64,000 bases of DNA from Desulfarculaceae bacterium. GTDB lineage: Bacteria > Desulfobacterota > Desulfarculia > Desulfarculales > Desulfarculaceae. The notes under the pieces are model-generated. The model had not been told where the DNA came from. It saw only the letters and a program-made list of their open reading frames with translations, and searched no databases. The position numbers were made by a program, and so were the translations under genes. Below are positions 50,510 through 53,146 of this stretch, one piece after another; the stretch's first letter is position 1, and each line of letters starts with the position of its first letter. Location: contig JAIPEN010000010.1 of NCBI GenBank assembly GCA_021737145.1, positions 1 to 64,000 of the forward strand. The letters are read 5' to 3'.

Positions 50510-50549
50510 AAAAAAGGTCCGGCCCCGGCGGGAGAGCCGGGGCCGGACC
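50510..50549 (-). terminator. Strong intrinsic terminator of trpB2
   Basis: On the minus strand GGTCCGGCCCCGGC and GCCGGGGCCGGACC form a perfect 14-bp stem with a 6-base loop, followed by TTTTTT. Confidence 0.93.
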
Positions 50550-50624: not shown

Positions 50625-51989
50625 TTAAGAGGGCAGCTCCACCTTGGGCAGCTTGCCCAGGGCCTCGTCCACCATCTTCTGGGGATACTCGTAGTTGCTC
50701 AGCTGGCCGGCCAGGTAGGCGTCGTAGGCGCTCATGTCGAAGTGGCCGTGACCCGAGAGGTTGAACAGGATCACCCGCTCCTTGCCCTCTTCCTTGGCCT
50801 TGAGGGCCTCGATCACCGCGCCGCGTATGGCGTGGGTGGACTCGGGCGCGGGGATGATGCCCTCGGAACGGGCGAACATGAGCCCCGCCTCGAAGCACTC
50901 CAACTGGGGCACCGCGATGGCCTCGATGAGGTTGTCTTCCACCAGGCGGCTGACCAGGGGGCTCATGCCGTGGTACCTCAGCCCGCCGGCGTGGATGCCC
51001 GGGGGCACGAAGGTGTGGCCCAACGTGTGCATCATCACGATGGGGGCCAGGTGGGCCATGTCGCCGTAATCATAGGCATAGGTTCCCTTGGTCACCGTGG
51101 GGCAGGAGGCGGGCTCCACCGCCAGGATGCGCACGTCCATGCCGCCGATCTTTTCGCGCACATAGGGGAAGGACAGGCCCGCGAAGTTGGAGCCGCCCCC
51201 GATGCAGCCGATGACCACGTCGGGCTTTTCGCCGATCTTGGCCATCTGCCTGATGGCCTCCTCGCCGATTACGGTCTGGTGCAGGCACACGTGGTTGAGC
51301 ACCGAGCCCAGGGAGTAGTTGGTGTTTTCGTGGGTTACGGCGTCTTCCACCGCCTCGGAGATGGCCAGGCCCAGGGAGCCGGGATGGTCCGGGTTTTCGG
51401 CCAGGGCCGCGCGGCCGGACTCGGTCTGCTCGCTGGGGCTGGCGAAGATCTCGGCCCCCCAGGTGTTGATCATGGACTTGCGGTAGGGCTTCTGGTTGTA
51501 GGAGACACGCACCATGTACACGCTGCAGTCCAGGCCGAACATGTTGCAGGCCAGGCTCATGGCGCTGCCCCACTGACCGGCTCCGGTCTCGGTGGCGATG
51601 CGCTCGATGCCCTCTTTCTTGTTGTAATAAGCCTGGGGAATCGCGGTGTTGGGCTTGTGGGAGCCCGCCGGGGAGACCGACTCGTTCTTAAAGTAGATCT
51701 TGGCCGGGGTGTCCAGAAGCTTTTCCAGGTTTTGGGCCCGCATCAGGGGGGTGGGACGCCACAGGGCCAGCACCTGCATCACTTCCTCGGGGATGTCGAA
51801 GAAGGGCTGGGGGCTCATCTCCTGCTCCAGCAGGGCCATGGGGAAGATGACGTTCATCTGCTCCGGGGTGGCGATGTCCATGGTGGCCGGATGGAAGGGC
51901 GGGGCCAGCGGGGTGGGCAGGTCGGCCTGCACGTTGTACCACCGCTTGGGCATCTCCGTCTCGTCGAGTAAGACCTTGACCTGCTCCAT
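50625..51989 (-). CDS. trpB2: Tryptophan synthase beta subunit, TrpB2 type
   Basis: TrpB joins indole and serine with PLP to make tryptophan. This 454-residue protein belongs to the longer TrpB2 subfamily, with N-terminal YNVQADLP, the cofactor lysine in [21 protein letters not shown], and the phosphate-binding [11 protein letters not shown]. TrpB2 enzymes often lack the contacts for TrpA and use free indole. The ATG follows AGGAGA. It has no trpA or other trp genes beside it, yet is preceded by a Trp-codon leader peptide and attenuator (52041-52173), so its expression appears tuned to tryptophan supply. Confidence 0.94.
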
Positions 51990-52040: not shown

Positions 52041-52071
52041 AAAAAGAGCCGCGGGCCCTGGGGCCCGCGGC
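52041..52071 (-). terminator. Attenuator terminator of trpB2
   Basis: On the minus strand GCCGCGGGCCC and GGGCCCGCGGC form an 11-bp stem with a very small loop, followed by TCTTTTT. It lies between the leader peptide and trpB2. The upstream leader segment GGGGCCCG can pair with CGGGCCCC in the first arm, offering an antiterminator. Confidence 0.88.
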
Positions 52072-52089
52072 GGCGCTGCTAGCTGAGTG

Positions 52090-52173
52090 CTACTTGAGCG
52101 CGGACGGGCCCCTGCTCGGCGGCTGCCAGCGCCACCAGAGATGGTTGTCACGCACCGGGATCAGGTTGCTCAT
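52090..52173 (-). CDS. trpL: trp leader peptide (27 residues, WWRW)
   Basis: The short frame starts with ATG at 52173, 6 bases after GGAG, and ends at TAG 52090-52092. Codons 13, 14 and 16 are TGG, giving WWRW in a 27-residue peptide, which is far above chance. A promoter lies 27 bases upstream and an intrinsic terminator 19 bases downstream. This is the classical arrangement in which ribosome stalling at Trp codons lets transcription continue into trpB2. Confidence 0.87.
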
Positions 52174-52199
52174 CACGCTCTCCGTTGAATACTGTATAC

Positions 52200-52229
52200 C
52201 GTATACCAGCGCTATGTGAGAAGTGTCAA
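52200..52229 (-). promoter_or_regulatory. Promoter, with possible operator, of the trpL-trpB2 unit
   Basis: On the minus strand a perfect -35 TTGACA (52224-52229) is followed after 18 bases by TATACG (52200-52205). The -10 area contains two GTATAC hexamers 7 bases apart (52194-52206), which could be a repressor site; no known operator matches well. Confidence 0.6.
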
Positions 52230-52320: not shown

Positions 52321-53073
52321 TCATTGATTTTGCGCGGAAATTTCCTGGTCCAATACGTTCCGTTTCTTGGCTAATTGAGGCCCCAATTTTAAGATATTTC
52401 GTTCCCATGTTGGATCAATAATTCTCAAATTTTGATCGAAGAAAACCTTAAAAATTAGAAAAAGCATGTAAAAAGCATACAAAACGGACAGAAGATAAAA
52501 ACTATATATTTTTGGATTGTCCTTAGGGAACTGAAAGTAATGCACAAATAGTTCATACTGTTTACTATCATCCCTTTCCTTCGTTTCAAATCTATGGAGG
52601 AAGGAGCTAATGTCAGCATGAGAACCAAGTTCACTACACATATCGTGTATTTTTATTAAGTCGCGTGCTAGCGGATATGAATTCTTGTCCTTATTAATTG
52701 CATCCTGGATATTTCTTTTGATGAACCTAAAAAATTTGTCTCTATTGATGTAAGCCTCGGATTTGGCCGGTTCTAATACAAGAACATATGCTGTCAAACC
52801 AGCATCAATCGCTTTTCTCAAGGATGATAGGGCTTCTGATAAGTGGGAACGCAGCAAACACGAGGCAGTGAAATATAAATGAAAATGGACAAACAAAAAC
52901 AATGTCGGTACTATTTCCTCTCCTTCCTTGCCTTGAAACCTGTTTAAAGGTGCCTGGTAGACATCATCTAATTGGTGAAAAAGGTCAAACTCTTCCCGAA
53001 AGTTTACTAGGCTGGCCAAAAGATTTTGTTCCTCGACTCCAAGATAATCAATAAAATTCATTTGATTACCCAT
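52321..53073 (-). CDS. Hypothetical protein in AT-rich island
   Basis: The 250-residue product resembles nothing I recognise. It is mostly helical and rich in Phe, Tyr, Lys and Asn, with two hydrophobic parts: TLFLFVHFHLYFTASCLL near residue 58 and YSFYLLSVLYAFYMLFLIF near residue 195. Those may be membrane segments or a buried core. The ATG at 53073 is 6 bases after GGAG. Base and codon use are AT-rich, unlike all core genes here, so the gene was probably acquired. It is followed at 53147 by a second gene of the same kind. Confidence 0.65.
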   Translation of the reverse strand: MGNQMNFIDYLGVEEQNLLASLVNFREEFDLFHQLDDVYQAPLNRFQGKEGEEIVPTLFLFVHFHLYFTASCLLRSHLSEALSSLRKAIDAGLTAYVLVLEPAKSEAYINRDKFFRFIKRNIQDAINKDKNSYPLARDLIKIHDMCSELGSHADISSFLHRFETKERDDSKQYELFVHYFQFPKDNPKIYSFYLLSVLYAFYMLFLIFKVFFDQNLRIIDPTWERNILKLGPQLAKKRNVLDQEISAQNQ

Positions 53074-53146
53074 TGTGCGCTCCAAATGCAGAATTCTTGA
53101 CCGCCATTATCGATGACTTCCTGTTTTCATGATTACCCATTATACA

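Follow-up and report, generated by a model that had tools for sequence, protein, structure and literature searches.

A Trp-codon leader peptide and predicted transcription attenuator upstream of an orphan trpB2 in a Desulfarculaceae bacterium

The orphan trpB2 of this Desulfarculaceae bacterium is preceded by a Trp leader and attenuator, an arrangement that an earlier note had described from the letters of the DNA and that is confirmed here. A leader frame with clustered Trp codons, an intrinsic terminator, predicted mutually exclusive folds, conservation among relatives and sister attenuators in the same genome together make it very probable that this is a classical ribosome-mediated transcription attenuator, which would sense charged tRNA-Trp and control a stand-alone trpB2. 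The mechanism is classical; the interest lies in its unusual target, the recurrence of that target and the shared regulon.

The leader and its gene

The leader lies on the minus strand of the window, by which we mean the whole 64,000-nucleotide stretch of DNA that was analysed (Table 1). The TTGACA promoter element that the note had placed on this strand is present at 52229-52224, and every one of the 15 closest orthologues (the window included) has a TTGACA in the 300 nt ahead of its trpB2; the TTGACA/TATACG promoter was absent from the list returned by a promoter scan of the window. The ATG behind GGAG, the 27-codon frame with its three Trp codons (WWRW) and the TAG were all read directly, as described. 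The GC hairpin and its TCTTTTT tail, 51 nt from the trpB2 ATG (51989), are also there, though the stem counts 10 pairs in the terminator scan rather than the 11 bp first given. A Shine-Dalgarno sequence and clustered Trp codons in a short ORF, with an intrinsic terminator between that ORF and the gene, are thus all in place. The proposed pairing of the leader with the terminator holds as well: GGGGCCCG (52112-52105) pairs with CGGGCCCC in the first arm of the terminator, and the duplex continues into GCGCU/AGCGC.

Table 1. Features of the trpB2 region in the window.
Feature	Position	Strand	Basis or remark
-35 element TTGACA	52224..52229	-	read in sequence
TATACG, -10	52205-52200	-	weak; 18-nt spacer from TTGACA
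GTATACGGTATACAGTATTC: -10 (TATACG) and overlapping GTATACnGTATAC palindrome, candidate operator	52187..52206	-	
Candidate operator palindrome at trpB2, also written TTGTATACAA		-	
GGAG	5' of leader ATG 52173	-	read in sequence
Leader ORF, 27 codons	52090..52173	-	ORF reading and orthologous leaders
Leader Trp codons	starts 52137, 52134, 52128 (52137-52132 and 52128-52126)	-	
Leader stop TAG	52092-52090	-	
Antiterminator 5' strand (region 2), within leader ORF	52097..52112	-	stalled-state fold
Antiterminator 3' strand (region 3), overlapping first terminator arm	52060..52077	-	stalled-state fold
Intrinsic terminator: 10-bp GC hairpin (52071-52048) and TCTTTTT (52047-52041)	52041..52071	-	
trpB2, 454 aa, TrpB-like PLP enzyme	50625..51989	-	NCBIfam profiles
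Terminator-like site 3' of trpB2, 14 pairs, TTTTTT	50516..50549	-	terminator scan

The trpB2 product scored above the cut-offs of two NCBIfam profiles (NF009057, 734.9 bits; TIGR01415, 641.5 bits), and its best solved relatives are 6hul, 4qys and 6hte. Because a terminator-like site follows the gene, the unit is probably monocistronic, and tblastn with this genome's trp proteins found no other trp gene in the 64-kb window. The operon trpB1 (TIGR00263, 605.6 bits, over the cut-off) instead adjoins trpD, trpC, trpF and trpA on contig C6, in keeping with the note's description of a lone trpB2. The gene therefore lies outside an operon in a genome with trpB1 inside the trp operon, as in the trpB2_o class (Merkl, 2007; PMC1854888). 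Upstream on the same strand is a 254-aa ORF (52321-53085) with no Pfam match; a protein that appears similar by eye is encoded ahead of trpB2 at one related locus (L087).

Alternative folds of the leader

The folding runs assumed ribosome footprints, with the stalled state taken as RNA polymerase just past the first terminator arm. When the ribosome was stalled at any of the three Trp codons, the window leader folded in silico into an antiterminator of about -33 kcal/mol, in which GGGGCCCGU...GCGCU is paired with AGCGC...GCGGGCCCC; when it was placed at the stop codon, the terminator formed (-25 kcal/mol). Folding in both states, which the note had suggested as a check, thus gave the two outcomes it had anticipated, an antiterminator that is exposed by Trp stalling and exclusive with the terminator, in silico and with modest statistics. 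An uncontrolled run with no ribosome gave the terminator together with an upstream pairing, a candidate for the protector (1:2) hairpin that would allow termination in the absence of translation. Once the complete hairpin is made, a leader stalled at W1 keeps the antiterminator, whereas those stalled at W2 and W3 choose the terminator, so that the switch rests partly on the order of folding.

The same test was extended to 33 distinct attenuator sites, three of which were too short, leaving 30. At least 50% of arm 3 was paired with the leader in 29 of these (mean 0.71 versus 0.56 in shuffles), and the terminator formed with the ribosome at the stop in 27, while individual significance (p ≤ 0.05) was reached by three of the 30 sites for arm pairing and by eight for energy. 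A duplex test gave p ≤ 0.05 in 16/36 sites, three of the 36 being repeats. The window itself passed the duplex test (p 0.010), with arm pairing (p 0.49) and energy (p 0.16) not significant. Site by site, then, the antiterminator statistics are weak. The plain minimum free energy of the whole leader is not unusual and is uninformative (z -1.23); the evidence resides in the alternative structures and in conservation, not in a single minimum.

How often such a leader arises by chance

We applied a strict rule under which a frame opens with a start codon, is about 60 codons long at most, has at least three Trp in eight codons and is closely followed by a terminator. One of 5000 dinucleotide shuffles of the 300-nt region upstream of trpB2 passed it. 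Over 709 ORFs of at least 200 aa at loci L005-L080 (both strands, with trpB2 and spurious ORFs included) it gave eight matches, seven of them trpB2 itself. A similar scan of both strands of the whole window returned two sites, that of trpB2 and a GTG frame rich in Arg and Pro whose hairpin has 7 pairs. When the residue was varied over 169 trpB2 upstream regions, Trp gave 33 matches, well above the counts for the other rare residues (C 1, M 0, H 0, F 5, Y 7); the commoner residues gave G 28, L 20, V 16 and R 16. Five repeated regions (L001-L004, L185) had been dropped from this set, and four other repeated pairs remain in it, none of them matching.

Conservation in the genus and among close orthologues

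Within the genus, the DNA upstream of trpB2 is readable in seven genomes (own included), and all seven pass the strict rule; an eighth, G007, holds only a trpB2 fragment and is not counted as readable. A second trpB2 in G010 (L104, 61% identical) has no Trp leader, and by eye shows a hairpin and T run. When nine leaders were aligned, all had TGG at the first and third Trp positions of WWRW and seven had it at the second, while the first twelve codons varied. The earlier note had named TGG codons kept amid drifting sequence as a test of its reading; they are seen within the genus and also in some genera, families and phyla outside it.

A Trp leader is present at 11 of the 15 closest orthologues (76% identity or more, own included) and missing at the other four; the 11 include L094 and L095, which keep the hairpin with two Trp codons and fall outside the strict rule. 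At L090-L093 the promoter and GTATAC are kept, and neither leader nor terminator was found by the rules used. The pattern that the note had named as speaking against it, a hairpin kept with the Trp codons lost, does not occur among these 15, L090-L093 having lost both together. In the wider set, 10 of the 136 regions that gave no strict call have, within 250 nt, a hairpin of 9 or more pairs together with a T run; three of the 10 (L094, L095, L160) have two-Trp leaders, and in seven no such leader was established.

Distribution across the order, the phylum and beyond

Strict calls were made at 11 of 20 usable order loci (21 given, own included; 0.00 expected from shuffles), at nine of the best 80 genome_contigs loci (0.03 expected), at three of 23 usable top phylum loci (24 given; 0.07 expected) and at 13 of 51 usable further phylum loci (60 given; 0.10 expected). 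These 60 comprise 47 taken one per family and 13 second members, chosen among the matches listed, and five records stand in two sets (L001/L086, L002/L089, L003/L094, L004/L095, L047/L185). No strict call was made in 136 of the 169 regions, including most trpB2 loci of the phylum and contig sets, and the strict list has weak members with odd Trp spacing or terminator placement (L222, L201, L192, L241).

Outside the phylum, a Trp leader and terminator precede trpB2 in two spirochaete contigs and one Caldithrix contig (L007, L008, L071), with no neighbouring trp gene in the DNA examined. At 17 other attenuated loci, tblastn with this genome's trp proteins found no further trp gene within about 4 kb or to the contig end. 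At four of these 17, in other families of the phylum (L253, L255, L261, L263), the gene downstream of the attenuated orphan trpB2 is IorA-like, with a weak indolepyruvate ferredoxin oxidoreductase match far below the curated cut-off; such neighbours would fit an indole or indolepyruvate link. Four loci were set aside as orphan cases (L035, L042, L046, L047), since trpE-trpG follows trpB2 there and their leaders are ordinary trp-operon leaders. These four, with L022 and L029, place trpB2 beside other trp genes in several lineages, which contrasts with the statement of a 2009 paper, as given in the part concerned, that non-Geobacteraceae encode trpB2 apart from the trp operon (PMC2700814).

Attenuator presence (strict calls plus L094 and L095) was mapped onto a TrpB2 tree of 119 proteins (129 listed, 10 left out) built by a quick method. 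At least nine changes are needed, seven of them forced by well-supported branches, with gain and loss indistinguishable. A 2010 survey, in the part relevant here, named two phyla for leader-peptide attenuation and itself added Firmicutes His leaders (PMC2965389). The matches in several families of the phylum and in the spirochaete and Caldithrix contigs suggest that leader-peptide attenuation extends more widely than those two phyla.

Sister Trp units in the same genome

Two further units of the genome carry attenuators of this architecture. The trpDCFBA unit is preceded by a Trp leader (WRYWWWY) and terminator, and the trpE unit, whose first gene heads an aromatic cluster, by a Phe/Tyr/Trp leader (FGFWFYWW) and terminator; trpB2 is the apparent third unit of this Trp regulon. 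NCBIfam cut-offs were exceeded by trpD, trpC, trpF, trpB1, trpA, DAHP synthase and prephenate dehydratase, whereas trpE (476 versus 517.7 bits) and a tyrA-like gene fell below the cut-off, and trpG and the remaining aro genes were named by reading, not by profile. At L114 the leader upstream of trpE, the head of the aromatic gene cluster, lies at -219 to -78. In relatives (L119-L133, L135), many of the trpE leaders likewise abound in Phe, Tyr and Trp codons (VFGFWFYWW, for example), as though all three aromatic amino acids were being sensed; the leaders at L130 and L132 have few Phe and Tyr codons.

At L143-L148, L150 and L156, trpD is preceded by a tandem arrangement, with a pair of Trp leaders and a pair of terminators in series. 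With tandem defined as two terminators plus two leaders that each have two or more Trp within six codons, this applies to eight of the 15 order loci whose upstream region is complete (own included); the own genome has one attenuator, and at L151 two leaders were found with one terminator called. Two leader ORFs in series are also known from the tandem attenuators of Salmonella mgtCBR (PMC3641672, relevant part), which resemble this sister trpD arrangement and not trpB2; unlike mgtCBR, both leaders of the trpD tandem are Trp-rich. A test of whether the trpB2 attenuator may have descended as a copy of that of trpD gave z 5 to 7 in three of seven genomes and p 0.020 in a fourth, and was not significant in the other three, the window's included.

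The GTATAC palindrome

GTATAC is found at all three Trp units of the genome (window 52187-52206; L083, 4692; L114, 4452); of its five occurrences in the approximately 84 kb of these sequences, four are at the three units. Over the tabulated regions of 17 genomes (own included) it occurs at trpB2 in 14/17, at trpE in 10/15 and at trpD in 11/14, while three genomes from outside the genus (G011, G002, G019) have it at none of these units. TrpR models gave no match in this genome, the assembly of which is 94.74% complete. The operator sequence GTATACNGTATAC has its single exact genomic match at trpB2 and, at up to two mismatches genome-wide, is not enriched (12 per strand versus 21 for the reversed control). 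Searching for a regulator through the operator was unproductive: the four other GTATACNGTATAC sites inspected (L243, L244, L246, L248) lie near genes that do not appear Trp-related, among them a MerR-type regulator (Pfam) and branched-chain amino acid transport genes (by eye).

Alternative explanations

The hairpin might be simply the terminator of the upstream ORF at 52321-53085, which shares its strand and stops some 250 nt short of it, with the Trp-rich frame a chance ORF of a kind that, like hairpins, is plentiful in GC-rich DNA. This we consider highly improbable: the TTGACA promoter stands between that ORF and the hairpin, in-frame TGG codons recur in relatives even where the upstream ORF is a different one (L096, L097), and the shuffles and the single non-trpB2 match among the 709 ORF upstream regions leave little to chance. 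There is scarcely more to be said for a trpB2 promoter below the hairpin, which would make attenuation irrelevant. It is suggested by TATATACA just 3' of the hairpin in the window, a motif that is not kept in L084, L085, L087 or L088, and any -35 element serving it would fall within the hairpin itself.

That a repressor acting at the GTATACnGTATAC palindrome is the main control, with the attenuator secondary or decaying, seems to us rather unlikely, even with GTATAC at all three Trp units and its retention at the trpB2 of L090-L093, where leader and terminator are gone. The genus keeps its Trp codons, which argues for selection on the attenuator there; G011 and G002, two of the genomes without the palindrome at the three units, have trpB2 leaders; and neither a TrpR match nor a repressor was found in this genome. 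Very little weight, finally, falls on trpB2 having some other activity and a leader that does no more than tie it to translation stress. Serine deamination was at one time suggested as the function of TrpB2, but the passage that mentions this also describes the activity as poor in two TrpB2_o proteins (PMC1854888). Of the rare residues, it is specifically Trp that the leader codons favour, and TrpB2 enzymes are O-phosphoserine-dependent Trp synthases according to work cited in one passage of PMC11917138.

Proposed mechanism and role of TrpB2

Under Trp attenuation, the reading we prefer, the ribosome would reach the TAG when Trp is ample and mask the leader ORF towards its 3' end, leaving the terminator hairpin to stop transcription ahead of trpB2. 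With translation and transcription coupled, as we infer, a shortage of Trp-tRNA would stall the ribosome on the TGG codons, and 52112-52097 would pair with 52077-52060, blocking the terminator so that trpB2 is made. Trp starvation would in this way call forth more of a second Trp synthase beta chain, apart from trpA, alongside the trpE and trpDCFBA units, and the raised TrpB2 would probably turn free or scavenged indole into Trp. A repressor at the GTATAC palindrome may do part of the work.

The biosynthetic or salvage role that the note had drawn from Trp control of the gene is strengthened by the attenuators at trpE and trpDCFBA, because they share its architecture. Given this control and the presence of an operon trpB1 in the genome, TrpB2 is best read as a Trp-starvation enzyme that would make Trp from free indole, for which TrpB2 is described as having high affinity in the relevant parts of two papers (PMC11535334, PMC11917138). 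With no match to tryptophanase models in this genome, the source of the indole would be leakage or the surroundings. The genome also has IorA-like genes, one of them over the cut-off.

More tentatively, and at slightly less than even weight, we suggest a layered aromatic regulon in which a regulator other than TrpR would act at the GTATAC of the three units and be joined by attenuators of graded codon content, TrpB2 would serve as a dedicated indole scavenger under Trp starvation, and the scheme would have been gained or lost repeatedly across phyla. The grading, as part of this reading, would run from Phe/Tyr/Trp at trpE, through Trp, often two leaders in series, at trpD, to Trp at trpB2.

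Relation to known attenuators

The trp operon of E. coli, with its leader trpL, is the model ribosome-mediated Trp attenuator, and Rfam includes a Trp_leader family. The present leader shares with trpL the short leader peptide, the neighbouring Trp codons, the antiterminator set against a terminator and the U tract; it differs in that one orphan trpB2 is controlled, not a trp operon, and in that no TrpR match accompanies it. Neither at the gathering score nor in a relaxed search did the leader match any Rfam family, the Trp_leader covariance model included (the best relaxed hit, E 1.5, was to another family), and the Rfam search of the window gave only a tRNA and no T-box.

An attenuator before a gene called trpB2 has been described in the actinobacterium Corynebacterium diphtheriae, whose trpB2A has a trp attenuator; repeated UGG codons mark the leaders of the trp attenuators in that paper, as presented in its relevant section (PMC1262725). 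Like the present case in that respect, it differs in being an operon with trpA rather than an orphan trpB2, and our guess is that the C. diphtheriae gene is TrpB1-like and not a COG1350-type TrpB2. Attenuators have also been predicted for aromatic supraoperons, including those of the deltaproteobacterium Desulfovibrio vulgaris, where one of the attenuated aromatic clusters adjoins the trp operon; section 36 of that paper deals with tyrA-containing clusters and itself mentions neither trpB2 nor leader codons (PMC1173090). In the main text of the trpB2_o paper, 'attenuat' occurs once, in a reference title (PMC1854888). Searches of an open-access library brought up no report of an attenuator on an orphan trpB2; subscription papers may hold one.

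A 2008 metagenome paper suggested, in the passage concerned, that repression and attenuation become superfluous for trp genes that have become detached (PMC2395257). The trpB2 attenuator runs against that suggestion. In a Trp-codon attenuator the sequence gives direct evidence that, for the cell, the orphan trpB2 belongs to its Trp supply.
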